A DNA stretch of 64,000 nucleotides, from assembly GCA_016839055.1 (NCBI GenBank), contig JAEKNX010000003.1, positions 62,001 to 126,000 on the forward strand. The letters run 5' to 3'. This document shows positions 13,379 through 20,514 of the stretch, in pieces. Numbering within the stretch: the stretch's first letter is position 1; the number at the start of each line of letters is the position of its first letter. The stretch is from Spirochaetales bacterium. GTDB lineage: Bacteria; Spirochaetota; Spirochaetia; UBA9216. The notes beneath the pieces were generated by a model. It saw only the letters and a list, made by a program, of their open reading frames with translations, was not told the origin of the DNA and did not search any database. A program made the translations under genes and the position numbers.

Positions 13379-13458
13379 TTGTCTTTTGCCGTTTAAAAGG
13401 TCATAATGATCTATCGGCCGAAAGGCTCATGATTTATATCACGGGGGAAAGACTTAAT

Positions 13459-15087
13459 ATGCTAGAAAGAAATTTTGTTAAAACGATAGAAAAGAGTCTA
13501 AAGGATAACTGGACTCTTCCCTGCTTCTCAAATTTTGAAGCGGATACTCATAGCTACGCTGATATTGCAGAAAGCTTCCTGATTTTTCATGAAGTATTCA
13601 AAAAATGTGGAATCAAAAAAGGTGATAAACTTGCCGTATGCGGAAAAAATTCTGTCAACTGGGCCAAGTGTTATCTCGGAACGGTCACCTACGGCGCGGT
13701 GATAGTCCCCATCCTTCCTGATTTTTCTTCAGAAGACATCACAAACATACTTAACCATTCCGAGGCTAAAGTTTTCTTTGCTGATGAATCTATTCTCAAG
13801 GGTCTAGATTTAGAAGCAATCCCTGTACTTGAAGTGGTTGGAAAGCTTGATGATTTTGATATAATAAAAACTTCCGGGAAAATAACCAATACAATTATCG
13901 CTGAAGCCAGAGGCGTTATCTCAGAACGCTATAAAGCCGGACTAAAACCAGAGGACCTAGCCTTCGATGATATTCCGAACGATACCCTCGAAGGAATAGT
14001 ATACACATCAGGAACTACCGGATTCTCCAAGGGCGTTATGCTTAATCATAATTGCTTGATGGCGAACGTTGATTTTGCCCAGAAGAATATCTCACTCAAA
14101 TCCGGTGATGCTATATTAAATTTTCTTCCGTTAGCACATTCATTCGGTTGCGCATTCGACCTCCTGTTTCCCATTGCTACAGGATGTCACATAACCTTCC
14201 TTCCCAAGATGACCCCTCAACTGCTGATAAAGGGCCTGGCTGAGGTTAAGCCTGCTCTAATTCTAACAGTTCCGCTTCTTGTCGAGAAAATCTACTTCAA
14301 ACAGCTTAAACCAATCCTGAACAAGAGCTACGCTAAAATCCCGGGCATCAAACAGCTGCTCGAACGCGTAATCTATAAAAAACTGAACGCAACCTTCGGC
14401 GGAAATTTCATTTCGCTGGTTCTCGGTGCGGCTGCATTCAATCCTGAAGTAGAAGCCTTTCTCAAGAAAATCAAATTCAGATTTACGGTCGGATACGGCA
14501 TGACTGAATGCGGTCCCCTTATCAGCTATATGCCCTGGGATGTTTACAAAGGCGGGTCGGCCGGCCGGCTGATAAATCATCTTGAATGTAAAATAGACTC
14601 TGAGGATCCTGCAAATATCCTGGGTGAAATTTGCGTCAGAGGCGAAAATGCCATGATCGGTTACTACAAGAACGACGAGGCAACCCGCGAGGCAATAGAT
14701 GAGGAAGGATGGCTGCATACCGGCGACATGGGTACAATGGACAGCGATAATGTTATATTTATTAAAGGCCGCTGTAAAAACATGCTGCTAGGTGCCGCCG
14801 GTCAGAATATCTATCCTGAAGAGCTCGAAGCTAGACTAAACAACCATGATATAGTCGCTGATGCCCTGGTTCTCGAGAGAGAAGGCAAGGTTACTGCCTT
14901 GATTTATCCCGAACCGGACTTTATAAAAAGCCTCAGCGATACTGAGGTCGAGGCCGAGGTAAAAGAGACAGTCAGGATTGTGAACAAAGAACTTCCGGCT
15001 TACTCGAAAATCATTCTGAGTGAAATTAGAACAGAAGAATTCGAAAAAACTCCAACGTCAAAAATAAAACGATATAAATACTCCTGA
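13459..15087 (+). CDS. Long-chain acyl-CoA ligase (AMP-forming)
   Basis: This member of the ANL superfamily activates a carboxylic acid with ATP and joins it to CoA. The AMP-binding P-loop YTSGTTGFSKGVMLNH, the GYGMTECGP motif, the HTGDMG motif and the C-terminal hinge region IKGRCKNM are all present. The start at 13459 gives 542 residues and has GGGGGAAAG 7 bp upstream; an in-frame ATG ten codons earlier (13429) has no good ribosome-binding site. It stands alone between two terminators. Substrate is not readable; lipid remodelling is a reasonable guess. Confidence 0.9.
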   Translation: MLERNFVKTIEKSLKDNWTLPCFSNFEADTHSYADIAESFLIFHEVFKKCGIKKGDKLAVCGKNSVNWAKCYLGTVTYGAVIVPILPDFSSEDITNILNHSEAKVFFADESILKGLDLEAIPVLEVVGKLDDFDIIKTSGKITNTIIAEARGVISERYKAGLKPEDLAFDDIPNDTLEGIVYTSGTTGFSKGVMLNHNCLMANVDFAQKNISLKSGDAILNFLPLAHSFGCAFDLLFPIATGCHITFLPKMTPQLLIKGLAEVKPALILTVPLLVEKIYFKQLKPILNKSYAKIPGIKQLLERVIYKKLNATFGGNFISLVLGAAAFNPEVEAFLKKIKFRFTVGYGMTECGPLISYMPWDVYKGGSAGRLINHLECKIDSEDPANILGEICVRGENAMIGYYKNDEATREAIDEEGWLHTGDMGTMDSDNVIFIKGRCKNMLLGAAGQNIYPEELEARLNNHDIVADALVLEREGKVTALIYPEPDFIKSLSDTEVEAEVKETVRIVNKELPAYSKIILSEIRTEEFEKTPTSKIKRYKYS

Positions 15088-15095
15088 TATTAACC

Positions 15096-15127
15096 GGCGG
15101 CAGCCGCATTGAGCTGCCGCCTTTTTT
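15096..15127 (+). terminator. Strong intrinsic terminator after acyl-CoA ligase
   Basis: GGCGGCAGC (15096-15104) and GCTGCCGCC (15113-15121) form a perfect 9-bp GC-rich stem with an 8-nt loop, followed by six T residues. Confidence 0.9.
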
Positions 15128-15423: not shown

Positions 15424-15596
15424 TAAACCATAAATGACTTGCTTTTTTGACATTCCGGATTTAAACTGCGGTATATTTTTATTATCTTCCGAATCTTCAT
15501 TTCCTGAAAACCAGGCAGAGATGCCTGCGTATGGAAGAAGATCGACGGGTTCAGCCGGAAACAGCTGCGCCTCCCGTGTTTGGAAAGGAAGTCAAA

Positions 15597-17087
15597 TTGT
15601 TAAAAAAAATCAGCGTTGCCTCGGCGGCCCTGTTCTGTGCGCTAAATTTATACTCACTCTCGGTTTCGGTAAACTCCAGCCCATGGGAAGATTACAGCCG
15701 GCAGAGACTTGACAGTCTTGCCTATGCTATCGCCGCTGATAACGGAGAGATAAAAAAAGGTATATCACTCGCCGAACTCTTTCCGGCTCTATTTGACGCA
15801 TGGCTCCTCGAAGTCGAGTGCTCCCCGGCCTCCGAAAGGGTTCAATTTGAGGTTCCTGACCTGGCTGATAAACTCGAGGGAATCTTTTTAAGCGCCGGGT
15901 CATCAGGATGGGAACTTGAATACGAAGGCCTCACATTCAGTAATATAAATTCAATAAATATTAAAGGTGAAGTTCTGACCAAAAGACCCCTTGAAATTTG
16001 GGTTAACTGGGAGGGCACGGAATTCCTCCGTGGCGAGATTAAGAGATACGCCGATCTTCATCGTGTCGAGATTAAGGTAACCGAAGTACCCCGGCCGGAT
16101 TCGAAACTTATTTCAGTCGCCAGAGGCGGCGGGGCTGTTCCTGACATTCTCATGGTTCAGTCCGGCTACATTGACAGTCTTGTCCGGTCGGGAAGCATAC
16201 AGAATATCGGATACATGTATCCTGAAGGGCTGCAAGTTCAGGGGCGAGAAGCTTTTACCTACGATGGAAAGATCTGGGCGGTACCATTTTACTATGACGC
16301 CCAGCTTATGTTCTATAACCCCGAAATGATTCACGGCCCAGATTACAACTGGACCCTCAGCGATTACGAGAAGCTTTGCAGAACTGCCGGCAGTTCCGGA
16401 TCGATCGCCTCTGCATGGAACGCCTATTCTGCATCATTTCTTATTCCCTTTCAGTTGTCCTTCGGAAAACAGCATATCATAGAGCCGGACGGCTCAATCA
16501 GGATTACCGACGAGGCCAGCAGAAAAGCCCTCGAATACATCATAAGACTAAAAGATGCCAGCCTTATGACTCCTATGGAAAGAGACGCCATGACTTCGCT
16601 CTTTGTCTCAGGAGATGCCGCGATGATTATCAGCGCGTCATACGCCATTCCTCACTTTCAGGATCTTGGAATCCCCTTTGAGACTGTCCCCCTCCCGGTA
16701 AACCAAAATACAGGAATAAGGGTCTCGCCGCTTCTCGACTTTAAGGCCTTCGCTATTACAAAAAAATCCCGGAACACTGCCGGAGCACGCCGCCTTATCG
16801 AATACCTTACCGGAACCGGAGTTCAGTACCGTTTCACATCCGAGACATCAAAGGTTCCAGCCCTGGAATCCGCTTTCAGACTTCTCAAAGGCGAAAACAA
16901 GTACTACGAGGCTCTCAGAATTAGCGCCGAATCAGGAACAATCATACCTACTGACAAAGCATACTCAGTTTACAAAAACACGATGTGGAAGATGCTCAGA
17001 TTTGCAATCTCAGGCAGAATGCCCCCCGGAGTAGTGCTTGAGAAAACACAGGAGCTTGTAGATAAAAATATGGAAGATATAAATTAA
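15597..17087 (+). CDS. Extracellular solute-binding protein of an ABC transporter
   Basis: This family 1 solute-binding protein is the substrate receptor of the operon that ends with the fused permease. The TTG at 15597 is chosen because AAGGAAG lies 5 bp upstream and translation then begins directly with a signal peptide (LLKKISVASAALFCALNLYS). An ATG at 15531 would add 22 unrelated residues before it. The 496-residue product has the usual hinge blocks: GGGAVPDILMVQSGYI, KIWAVPFYYDAQLMFYNPE and LLDFKAFAITKKS. An extra ~150-residue beta-rich N-terminal part precedes the binding fold. It lies 9 bp from the next gene. Confidence 0.85.
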   Translation: MLKKISVASAALFCALNLYSLSVSVNSSPWEDYSRQRLDSLAYAIAADNGEIKKGISLAELFPALFDAWLLEVECSPASERVQFEVPDLADKLEGIFLSAGSSGWELEYEGLTFSNINSINIKGEVLTKRPLEIWVNWEGTEFLRGEIKRYADLHRVEIKVTEVPRPDSKLISVARGGGAVPDILMVQSGYIDSLVRSGSIQNIGYMYPEGLQVQGREAFTYDGKIWAVPFYYDAQLMFYNPEMIHGPDYNWTLSDYEKLCRTAGSSGSIASAWNAYSASFLIPFQLSFGKQHIIEPDGSIRITDEASRKALEYIIRLKDASLMTPMERDAMTSLFVSGDAAMIISASYAIPHFQDLGIPFETVPLPVNQNTGIRVSPLLDFKAFAITKKSRNTAGARRLIEYLTGTGVQYRFTSETSKVPALESAFRLLKGENKYYEALRISAESGTIIPTDKAYSVYKNTMWKMLRFAISGRMPPGVVLEKTQELVDKNMEDIN

Positions 17088-17096
17088 GGAGAAACT

Positions 17097-18509
17097 ATGA
17101 AAAAAAACCTATTAAGATACCTGCTGCCCGGTCTGGCGGCCGTCCTGCTGCTTTTCGCAGGATGTAGTACGGTAGCGAACGAGAATAGCGCGGCACAGAA
17201 CCAGCCTGCTGTTGAAAAAACCGGGACTGATACAATCACCCACGCTACACCTAAGGGCGAAGGCTGGATGATCAAGATTTCCGGCGTCCGCAGTGATGAA
17301 ATATGGGAATCTAATTTCGTAAAATGGAAGAAAGCTCCATCCTCAGGCTACGGTGAATACGAATTCTCCGAGAAGGGTAAGCCGGTGATTTTCAAGGCAA
17401 TGCCGCTTAAAAACATCATAGCTATAGCCGATGATGCCGATGCGACAATGCCGTATTCATTCCTCAGCGCGAAATGGAAGGACGGATACGATATTACAAT
17501 GACAGCCTCAGACGGCTATTCGGTTACAGTAAACTCCGAGGATTTTCCGGAAGACGCGTTCTATCTTGCCGACGGCAGAGACGGTGAAAACATCAGTCCT
17601 ATGATAACCGGTAATATTTCAACTCAATTCTGGCTAAGGGAAATATCCGATATATCACTGTCGCTGCAGCCTCTCGCCCTCGAGAACAACGACTTCGAAC
17701 TCCTCCTGGATATCGGCGGGAAGGAGGACTCATTCACAATCAGCGAGCTTGAGAAGCTGAGCTACTACATTGAAGACAGGGGAAATTACACAAACACCTA
17801 CGACAACAACTTCCAATTCCTATGGGGCGGAGTCAAGATAGTCAGTCTCATTAATGAATATGCAAAGCTGAGTGAAGACATGAGTGTTATTATTGAGGCC
17901 ATGGACGGCTACGCCATGACCTATAGTGCCGCACAGCTGATGGATGACAGCGATGGAGAATGGATTCTGGCCTTCAAAGAAGACGGGAAATATATGCCCG
18001 AAGATCCTGGATATATCAGACTGGTGAAAGTCGGACCTGAGAATCCTACCATGCTCGGACATACTTCCGCGCGGATGGTAAAGAAGATTATTCTCGAAAA
18101 CTCATCATTCAAGGACTTCACCCTGAAGATCATAGATGGCGCTAAGGTTGAAAACATGGATCGCCAGACCCTTCAGAGCGGAGTAACCACCTGGAGAACA
18201 ATTGTAAATCACTTCAACAGCAAAGAGGATAAAACTACCGCGTACATGGGCATGCCGATCTATGAAATTCTGGGCAATTACAGCGGATATGATACAGTCA
18301 GTATTGTTGCTGAAGACGGCTATACAATGACTCTCAAAGCCGAGGACCTCCAGGATAATGCTGATGTAATTCTCGCAATGTTCTACGGAGACGGATCCGA
18401 GCTGGCAGACAATGAATTCCCGCTTGTAGTTGCTTGGGACAAGGATGCCGAAAGAATTCCATCCGGAATCAAACCGGTTAGAAATGTCGCGCAAATCATA
18501 GTTGAATAG
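17097..18509 (+). CDS. Lipoprotein with three SUOX-like (molybdopterin-fold) repeats
   Basis: This 470-residue protein starts with a lipoprotein signal (LLLFAGC, Cys22). Three successive ~130-residue units follow the pattern W...V.G, GxPIxxIL, then DGYxxTxxAxDL and ILAxFxDGxxL, and end with a strand near VxKIILE. This pattern is that of oxidoreductase molybdopterin-binding (SUOX) domains. The only Cys is the lipidated one, so the molybdenum-ligand Cys is absent and a ligand-binding or structural role is more likely than redox catalysis. It is translated from an operon between the binding protein and the fused permease and overlaps the permease start by 8 bp. Function unknown. Confidence 0.65.
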   Translation: MKKNLLRYLLPGLAAVLLLFAGCSTVANENSAAQNQPAVEKTGTDTITHATPKGEGWMIKISGVRSDEIWESNFVKWKKAPSSGYGEYEFSEKGKPVIFKAMPLKNIIAIADDADATMPYSFLSAKWKDGYDITMTASDGYSVTVNSEDFPEDAFYLADGRDGENISPMITGNISTQFWLREISDISLSLQPLALENNDFELLLDIGGKEDSFTISELEKLSYYIEDRGNYTNTYDNNFQFLWGGVKIVSLINEYAKLSEDMSVIIEAMDGYAMTYSAAQLMDDSDGEWILAFKEDGKYMPEDPGYIRLVKVGPENPTMLGHTSARMVKKIILENSSFKDFTLKIIDGAKVENMDRQTLQSGVTTWRTIVNHFNSKEDKTTAYMGMPIYEILGNYSGYDTVSIVAEDGYTMTLKAEDLQDNADVILAMFYGDGSELADNEFPLVVAWDKDAERIPSGIKPVRNVAQIIVE

Positions 18510-20514
18510 AAAATACTTTAAAATAAACTGGTATTTTATTATTCCCGCCCTGCTGATAATAGCGGCGGCGGGAATTTCCCCATTTTTCGAGGCACTGACA
18601 ACTTCACTATTTCACGACGTTTACGGAAATAGGACTTTCGCGGGCTTTGACAACTTCAAATACCTCGGCTCTGATTCAGGCTTCGGTTTCAGCCTCAACA
18701 TTACAGCGCTCTGGGCACTGCTCAGTTCGGCGGGAAGCATCTTCTTCGGTTTCATTGTTGCTTCGGCGCTCTCAGGCAGACGAAAAAAACTCTCGAATGT
18801 CCTCTACGGCGCCCTCCTCATTCCCTGGGGTATTCCGGTATACATTGCAGTTCCGCTCTGGAGAGCCCTCATTCACGGCAACGGAGGAATATCGATTCTT
18901 ACAACACTCTTCGGAGTAAAGGCAAATCTTCTCCTTGATCCAGCGGCGGGATTTATCAGCTGTATGGTAGTAAACCTCTGGATGACAGTCCCCTTGACTG
19001 CCTTCGTCCTCCGCGGAGCGCTGGGGAAAATACCAGTCAGCACTATTGAGGCTGCCGTAGTCGACGGCGCCAATCCCGGGGTAATGACAGCCTATATTTA
19101 CCTGCCTCAGATAAGATCCTCGCTTCTCGTCATGGGCCTGCTTAACTTTATTAAGGCTTTCAAGGAGTTTACTCTTATTTTCCTAATGACCTCCGGCGGA
19201 CCGCCGCTGATGTCAGGAATTACCGAGCGATATATAATAGGTTCGACAACCACCCTCGATCTCTTCCTGTATGATGTTTTCAGTAATACCGACGATCTTG
19301 GAATAACGTCCGCCTATTCTGTCATGATGGCCGGCATAGTAATTTTTCTGATGGCAATATGGTATGTGACCCGCAACCGAAAACAGACTGAAATAAAGAA
19401 ATTTAGGGCGATGAGCATTATCACGGCGGTTCTCCAGCTCCTTTTCGGAGGTACCGCGGGACTTCTTCCTGCGGCCGGTTATCTAACAGGGATATGGAGC
19501 CGTAAACTATTTAAAATAACCGCCGTTGTTCAGCTAGCCTGGGTGCTCTTTAGAATGGTTACCGTCAACTTCCTCGAAGGTTTTACTCCGGGAATACTGC
19601 CTGCCCTCTTTACGCTGTATTACTTCCGCAGTCGCCTGAAGGCTTCCGAAAAAAAGGATTTCACGGACAGAAAGTTCCATCCCCGCCTGATAAACAACCT
19701 AAACTCCGGCCTGTCAATATTTAGCGCGGGATTCCTTATTATCTCTTCAGCCGCTGTTCTATATTTCCTTCTATGGATGAGCTTCTCGGGGGTCAGCGCC
19801 TGTTTCATAGATGGATTCCTGCCCCCGCATCCGGGAACAGACAGTTATATAAACGTAATTAAAAATGAGAACATTTTCCTGTATTTTAAAAACACCCTCA
19901 TAGTCGCGGGACTCACAGGCCTTCTCATTCCCGCGGTAAGTTTCCCGGCGGCAGTGTTTCTCAACAGCCGCGGAAAGGCATTTACAATCGGATTTCTCAC
20001 CTTTATTCAGATTCTCGGAATAACAGGCGGTATGCATTCACTTATCCCATTATATTCGGCTTTCAGCCGGGCCGGCCTTGTCAACTCGTATCTCCCGCTG
20101 ATAATCATCTCAATATACCACAGTATTCCGTTCTCATTATTCACAATCACCGCCTGGCTTGAGAGAATGCCGAAGGCTTTCAGGGATATTGCCCTTTTAG
20201 AAGGGCAGAGGCCCCTGATATACCTGCTGCGGATAATCCTGCCTCTGTCAAAACCAGTGCTGATAACGTCCTTTATGACGGCCTTCATCGGGGCATGGAA
20301 CAGCTTCATGGCACCGCTTCTCTTCCTGAATAACGAAAAGCTTTATACTATCAGCGTGAAGCTTTATTCATTTGTAGGAAGTATTGCAAGCGGTTCACCT
20401 GAGTGGAACATCTTTGCGGCGGCTTCAGTTATTAATTGTCTGATTATTGCTCTGGTTTTTTCAAGATTCAAAAAACCGGTCGGAGAAACCGGCTTGTCTG
20501 AGTTCACTGAATAA
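18502..20514 (+). CDS. Fused MalF-MalG-type ABC permease
   Basis: This 670-residue membrane protein contains two complete permease halves. The first has the EAA loop EAAVVDGANPGVMTAYIYLP near residue 185; the second has DIALLEGQRPLIYLLRIILP near residue 555. A linker of about 100 residues with roughly four extra hydrophobic segments joins them (about 285-380). The TTG start overlaps the preceding stop by 8 bp, so translation is coupled. Sugar importers normally encode the two halves separately, so this is a gene fusion. No ATPase is encoded nearby. Confidence 0.85.
   Translation: MNRKYFKINWYFIIPALLIIAAAGISPFFEALTTSLFHDVYGNRTFAGFDNFKYLGSDSGFGFSLNITALWALLSSAGSIFFGFIVASALSGRRKKLSNVLYGALLIPWGIPVYIAVPLWRALIHGNGGISILTTLFGVKANLLLDPAAGFISCMVVNLWMTVPLTAFVLRGALGKIPVSTIEAAVVDGANPGVMTAYIYLPQIRSSLLVMGLLNFIKAFKEFTLIFLMTSGGPPLMSGITERYIIGSTTTLDLFLYDVFSNTDDLGITSAYSVMMAGIVIFLMAIWYVTRNRKQTEIKKFRAMSIITAVLQLLFGGTAGLLPAAGYLTGIWSRKLFKITAVVQLAWVLFRMVTVNFLEGFTPGILPALFTLYYFRSRLKASEKKDFTDRKFHPRLINNLNSGLSIFSAGFLIISSAAVLYFLLWMSFSGVSACFIDGFLPPHPGTDSYINVIKNENIFLYFKNTLIVAGLTGLLIPAVSFPAAVFLNSRGKAFTIGFLTFIQILGITGGMHSLIPLYSAFSRAGLVNSYLPLIIISIYHSIPFSLFTITAWLERMPKAFRDIALLEGQRPLIYLLRIILPLSKPVLITSFMTAFIGAWNSFMAPLLFLNNEKLYTISVKLYSFVGSIASGSPEWNIFAAASVINCLIIALVFSRFKKPVGETGLSEFTE

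Follow-up and report, generated by a model that had tools for sequence, protein, structure and literature searches.

The DNA analysed here is a 64-kb stretch, referred to as the window, from a spirochaete genome of 5.0 Mb in 43 contigs (G000; 97% complete). It carries a trio of genes on its forward strand. The first is a binding-protein gene (15597..17087) with a TTG start, whose secreted product has the maltose-binding-protein fold. The second is a lipoprotein gene (17097..18509), with three SUOX-fold repeats in which the Mo-ligand Cys is absent, and the third is a permease gene (18502..20514) encoding 670 aa with MalF-like and MalG-like halves. A sequence-only reading had described these genes as tightly coupled, and the coordinates confirm a gap of 9 bp between binding protein and lipoprotein, as well as an overlap of 8 bp between lipoprotein and permease. 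A Moco/Tuco riboswitch (RF01055) that lacks the P3 stem stands in front, at 15475..15606 on the same strand. Further upstream lies an acyl-CoA-synthetase-like (AMP-ligase) gene (13429-15087), which also occurs before the trio in L038, L039, L041 and L046. The strong terminator-like hairpin at its 3' end (15096..15121, forward strand; 9 pairs, 8 of them G-C, with a T tail) separates the operon from this gene; terminator-like sites in the region are no more numerous than in shuffles.

The binding protein matches SBP_bac_8 (7.9e-21) and also SBP_bac_1 in Pfam, and its SBP_bac_11 score of 18.1 lies under the cut-off of 25. Its structure model (pLDDT 93) matches the Thermotoga maltotriose-binding protein (E 1.7e-27), and its nearest solved relatives bind maltodextrins. 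There is an extra N-terminal domain at about residues 20-130. Compared with the profile of lipoprotein repeat 2, this domain scored 24.6, above all 60 column shuffles; compared with the SUOX domain of the ECF transporters discussed below, it scored 15.6, a value reached by 1 of 60 shuffles. A SUOX-type origin of the domain was set aside for its weak profile support and is kept as an idea. The single permease with both halves, as first described, is borne out by two BPD_transp_1 stretches (Pfam), assigned by NCBIfam as MalF-like (42-280) and MalG-like (458-654), and an EAA-type motif can be read directly from the sequence of each half. Two separate permease genes in relatives were considered and ruled out, as the permease is one open frame in every locus with both halves.

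The operon had also been described as lacking an ATPase, and a MalK-type query finds none in the 64-kb window. Outside it, the genome contains five OB_MalK matches, and at L054 there is a lone MsmK-type ATPase with no transporter genes within the surrounding 3 kb. Three relatives (L116, L120 and L133) have a homologue of this ATPase (67-68% identity) next to the trio in divergent orientation. With such candidates for a shared ATPase, the absence of an ATPase gene from the trio is unremarkable.

The lipoprotein has 470 aa, with repeats at about residues 55-192, 199-338 and 340-470. Oxidored_molyb (PF00174) matches residues 240-339 in Pfam (3.5e-6; 27.1 bits, cut-off 24) and is matched in 27/29 members of the family. 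A model based on 29 sequences (mean pLDDT 84.4) gave Foldseek matches to sulfite dehydrogenases and to PruR, which has been described as a Cys-less, SUOX-fold periplasmic pterin-binding protein of about 170 aa that pairs with DcpA-type signalling. By VIA, repeat 2 matches PruR (7kom, Z 15.9) and the C185S sulfite oxidase (3hbg, Z 15.5), and repeat 3 matches PruR with neopterin (7rkb, Z 15.3), confirming that these two repeats fold as SUOX domains. Of the three SUOX-like repeats originally proposed, repeat 1 is weak by fold (no strong match, Z about 5, which is no proof of difference) and is tied to repeat 3 by a profile match of 99.2%. The Mo-ligand Cys is indeed missing from the window lipoprotein, since its only Cys is C23 of the lipobox, a column with Cys in 21/24 rows. 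All 15 invariant columns among the 29 lipoproteins fall in repeat 2, and the number of repeats is two or three across the family, apparently more in L128 (623 aa). The predicted role of the lipoprotein in ligand handling, also part of the first description, is judged to be supported.

In relatives, repeat 3 contains an S(G/C)VSCH motif, with Cys at the 365 column in 19/27. The full CxxCH haem-type motif is present in 12/38 loci (as CVSCH in L113, L115-L118, L120-L123, L129, L132 and L133) and hints at a redox property there. It is absent in the window clade, from which it has been lost.

Across the 98 relatives searched, a lipoprotein relative was found in 15 genomes, including the window's own, and the fused permease in 13; in G004 and G054, the contig ends before the permease. 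A neighbourhood search shows that the trio is conserved, with binding protein, lipoprotein and permease adjacent wherever contigs allow. In G071, the lipoprotein is present and is overlapped by another frame. A further 19 trio loci comprise 17 from spirochaetes and 2 from Thermotogota, so that the gene pair, together with the riboswitch, persists in many families and extends to Thermotogota. In the Kosmotogaceae locus L131, the permease comes first, followed by the riboswitch, the binding protein and the lipoprotein.

The riboswitch match overlaps the start of the binding-protein gene and reaches 59.1 bits with the covariance model (gathering score 36; E 1.2e-13). This RNA motif senses Moco/Tuco and is associated with molybdate/tungstate transporters (Regulski 2008). 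It was found upstream of the trio in 30/30 loci having upstream DNA, namely 14 of the 15 trio-bearing relatives (the contig of G076 starts inside the binding-protein gene) and 16 of the further loci (L113, L118 and L129 are truncated). A lone second lipoprotein gene in G062 also carries its own riboswitch copy. A conserved GGAAAGG core is followed by the start codon at a distance of 5-13 nt in 28/30 trio loci. The aptamer therefore contains a likely Shine-Dalgarno region, and the core itself is likely that of the binding-protein gene.

The P3 stem is missing from the window copy in the covariance-model alignment. The gap between P2 and P4 was short in 29/31 copies according to a script that misplaced P2 in some, clearly in G070 and L117, and by eye the room for P3 is absent in all 31. 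RNAs lacking P3 were tied to the tungsten cofactor (Tuco) in Regulski 2008, and the window riboswitch has, in its predicted structure, the form of the Tuco type.

Other Moco riboswitches accompany a range of genes. The window's own genome has two P3-bearing copies, one before a Peripla_BP_2-type ABC system and one at a TonB-receptor locus (L090:1932-5504, contig C26). The latter copy is followed by genes for a lipoprotein of 316 aa and a TonB-dependent receptor with a Plug domain, possibly a route through the outer membrane that is controlled in a similar way. The genome also has a separate TupA-type tungstate system under the same RNA (RF01055). A P3-lacking copy stands before a gene for adenylosuccinate lyase, behind which come guaB-, purA- and guaA-like genes (L092:1623-7719), and a riboswitch stands ahead of the same lyase gene in the same-genus relative G003 (L095). 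Moco is made from GTP. Elsewhere in G003 (L099:7467-8481), a Moco riboswitch is found before a putative tRNA(Ile2) agmatinylcytidine synthetase gene, so named from the look of its start.

Tungstopterin-type AOR enzymes are nearly universal among trio bearers, occurring in 33/34 trio genomes (15/15 relatives and 18/19 further genomes); across all relatives, the family is found in 49/98. MoaC is present in 16/34 trio genomes, the window's own included, while both MoaC and MoeA are missing from 18/34, and 17 of these 18 have AOR. Among the 15 trio-bearing relatives, nine have MoaC and MoeA and six have neither (G006, 97% complete; G023, 93%; G035, 97%; G054, 90%; G062, 89%; G076, 81%). The 19 further genomes include 12 with neither gene and seven with MoaC, six of which also have MoeA; most genomes are MAGs, and the completeness figures are those of the relatives. 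MoaE was tried as a marker and proved uninformative, as it occurs in 12/98 genomes and many MoaC-positive genomes are without it. That MoeA is missing along with MoaC suggests uptake, in those genomes, of the complete cofactor with its metal. In the window's own genome, where both genes are retained, the system would serve for salvage.

Riboswitch distribution adds to this picture. Five of the 33 riboswitch-bearing relatives lack MoaC and MoeA and all five bear the trio, compared with 9/28 of the other riboswitch-bearing genomes. Two of these genomes, G023 and G035, have no Moco riboswitch besides the one before the trio. G006 has two others, both ahead of AOR genes; one is immediately adjacent, and the other is separated from its AOR gene by a ferredoxin-like gene. 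Among AOR-positive relatives, no association was found between the trio and missing synthesis (p 0.50; such Fisher values count related genomes as independent and are a guide only). Nine of the 15 AOR-positive relatives without MoaC/MoeA are also without the trio, five of the nine being from family f9, with weaker matches. In an AOR tree built from the longest open frame per stretch (the G045 row was left unused for an apparent wrong frame and a branch of 4.2), G009, which has no trio, falls beside the trio bearer G035, and G046, also without the trio, falls among trio bearers. This placing would speak for gene loss or missing contigs.

A parallel association was found in Bipolaricaulota (L134, L136) and Thermoplasmatota (L139-L142), where a SUOX protein adjoins an ECF transporter. 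For L139, Pfam identifies a CbiQ-type EcfT, a double ATPase and an ABC_cobalt-type S component; L140-L142 were assigned by frame similarity only. The S components of L134 and L136 have a C-terminal Oxidored_molyb domain above cut-off, and that of L139 scores slightly under it (21.4 vs 24 bits). By profile, the S-component SUOX domain matches lipoprotein repeat 1 at 97.5%. Seven ECF-type genomes, including L135 (record cut short) and the single 1.70-Mb chromosome record CP070748.1, all have AOR, and 6/7 are without MoaC/MoeA. None of the seven ECF loci has a Moco riboswitch at or above the gathering score. At L139:7136-8632, the SUOX protein is separated from the ECF genes by a metallophosphatase whose C-terminal stretch looks SUOX-like by eye; this enzyme might remove phosphate before uptake.

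Taken together, the regulator, the fold, the missing synthesis genes and the ECF parallel agree, which is why the trio is read, with moderate confidence, as an ABC importer of Tuco/Moco or metal-free molybdopterin, the ligand being deduced. The Cys-less SUOX domains, anchored in the envelope outside the cytoplasm, would capture the cofactor in the way that a molybdoenzyme or PruR holds its pterin. The cofactor would then be handed to the maltose-type binding protein, which would dock on the fused permease, with entry powered by a shared MsmK-type ATPase encoded elsewhere. Once in the cytoplasm, the cofactor would bind the P3-lacking riboswitch, hide the Shine-Dalgarno region and so shut down import. 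The initial reading is supported for the architecture, the SUOX fold, the absent Cys and a role in ligand handling; the substrate, the riboswitch, the loss of cofactor synthesis and the ECF parallel were all missing from it. Several points speak against cofactor import: MoaC in 16/34 trio genomes, the nine AOR-positive relatives with neither MoaC/MoeA nor trio and the lack of association that goes with them, the large share of MAGs, the PruR pocket (reported as likely too small for Moco), the maltodextrin-binding relatives of the binding protein and the CxxCH motif of relatives.

Other substrates were weighed on the same evidence. The trio could import an organic substrate or precursor of a tungsten enzyme, with the riboswitch merely co-regulating it, as a maltose-type binding protein, AOR genes near some trios (G001, G021) and the control of enzymes by this RNA would allow. 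This is rather unlikely, as it leaves unexplained both the pterin-type SUOX domains with their ECF S-component fusions and the fact that G023 and G035, both devoid of MoaC and MoeA, have kept a riboswitch solely for the trio. Import of molybdate or tungstate, either as such or bound to an organic carrier, would follow the transporters to which Regulski 2008 ties the motif, and the TupA-type system in the window's own genome is under the same RNA. However, the genome already has that system, the trio's binding protein is of the maltose type and not PBP_like_2 (with SBP_bac_11 under its cut-off), and an oxyanion would be of no use where MoaC and MoeA are missing, making this reading improbable.

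The lipoprotein might instead be an exported redox protein of a degenerate sulfite-oxidase or haem type, co-transcribed by chance with a sugar importer. The CxxCH loci and a weak match to an NCBIfam diheme family (33.1 bits vs a cut-off of 300) point in this direction, but the window clade has neither the Cys nor the haem motif, and the gene pair and riboswitch have stayed together over such taxonomic breadth; we regard it as quite doubtful. Uptake of another pterin (folate-like or monapterin), with an indirect riboswitch link, is highly improbable, since the binding of small pterins by PruR is outweighed by an RNA class that senses Moco/Tuco (Regulski 2008) and by AOR in nearly every trio genome.

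Cofactor import, if true, would be surprising, as cells are generally thought to need their own synthesis. According to the prevailing view, Moco has to be made by every cell that needs it, and its passage across membranes has been posed as a question (PMC9793310, 2022). Prokaryotes with molybdoproteins and an incomplete Moco pathway were found in a 2018 survey, for which unsequenced genes, new biosynthetic components or Mo-independent proteins were offered as explanations (PMC6147048). A part in the uptake of cobalamin or molybdopterin has been suggested for some T11SS outer-membrane proteins (PMC12282271), and a 'molybdopterin import cluster' is mentioned in a genome report, in a passage that gives no evidence for it (PMC4511579). 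No described bacterial Moco importer was found among open PMC papers. The operon is a concrete, cloneable candidate on each of these points: the need for own synthesis, the passage of Moco across membranes and the molybdoprotein bearers with an incomplete pathway. An exception in Regulski 2008 concerns Syntrophomonas wolfei, where 'sulphite oxidase' genes are preceded by RNAs without P3; these genes may encode pseudo-SUOX capture proteins.

More broadly, the chances seem about even that many anaerobes depend on tungsten/molybdenum-pterin cofactor as a vitamin, with two unrelated importers, the ABC trio and the ECF type, each having gained Cys-less SUOX capture domains. Many bearers would have lost MoaC/MoeA and kept their tungstopterin enzymes, so that under this vitamin reading the cofactor would have to pass from cell to cell in natural settings.

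Compared with known systems, the trio is closest in its parts to CUT1-type ABC importers (MalEFGK), with which it shares the binding-protein fold, the MalF-/MalG-like halves and MsmK/MalK-type ATPases in the genome. It differs in its fused permease halves, the lack of an operon-encoded ATPase, the SUOX-repeat lipoprotein in between and the Moco/Tuco riboswitch in front. ModABC, TupABC and WtpABC are also importers, some under a Moco/Tuco riboswitch, but they use another binding-protein family for oxyanion cargo, and the trio has no ModA/TupA-type binding protein. Sulfite oxidase and YedY (MsrP) share the SUOX fold (PF00174), whereas the window lipoprotein lacks their Mo-ligand Cys. PruR is likewise exported and Cys-less with a SUOX fold, but it is a single domain of ~170 aa with DcpA-type signalling, in contrast to a 470-aa lipoprotein that adjoins a permease and belongs to a family with 2-3 repeats. 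Finally, ECF vitamin importers are comparable in that, in Bipolaricaulota and Thermoplasmatota, a SUOX protein adjoins EcfT, a double ATPase and an S component; there a SUOX domain is fused to the S component and the transporter is of a class other than the window's.
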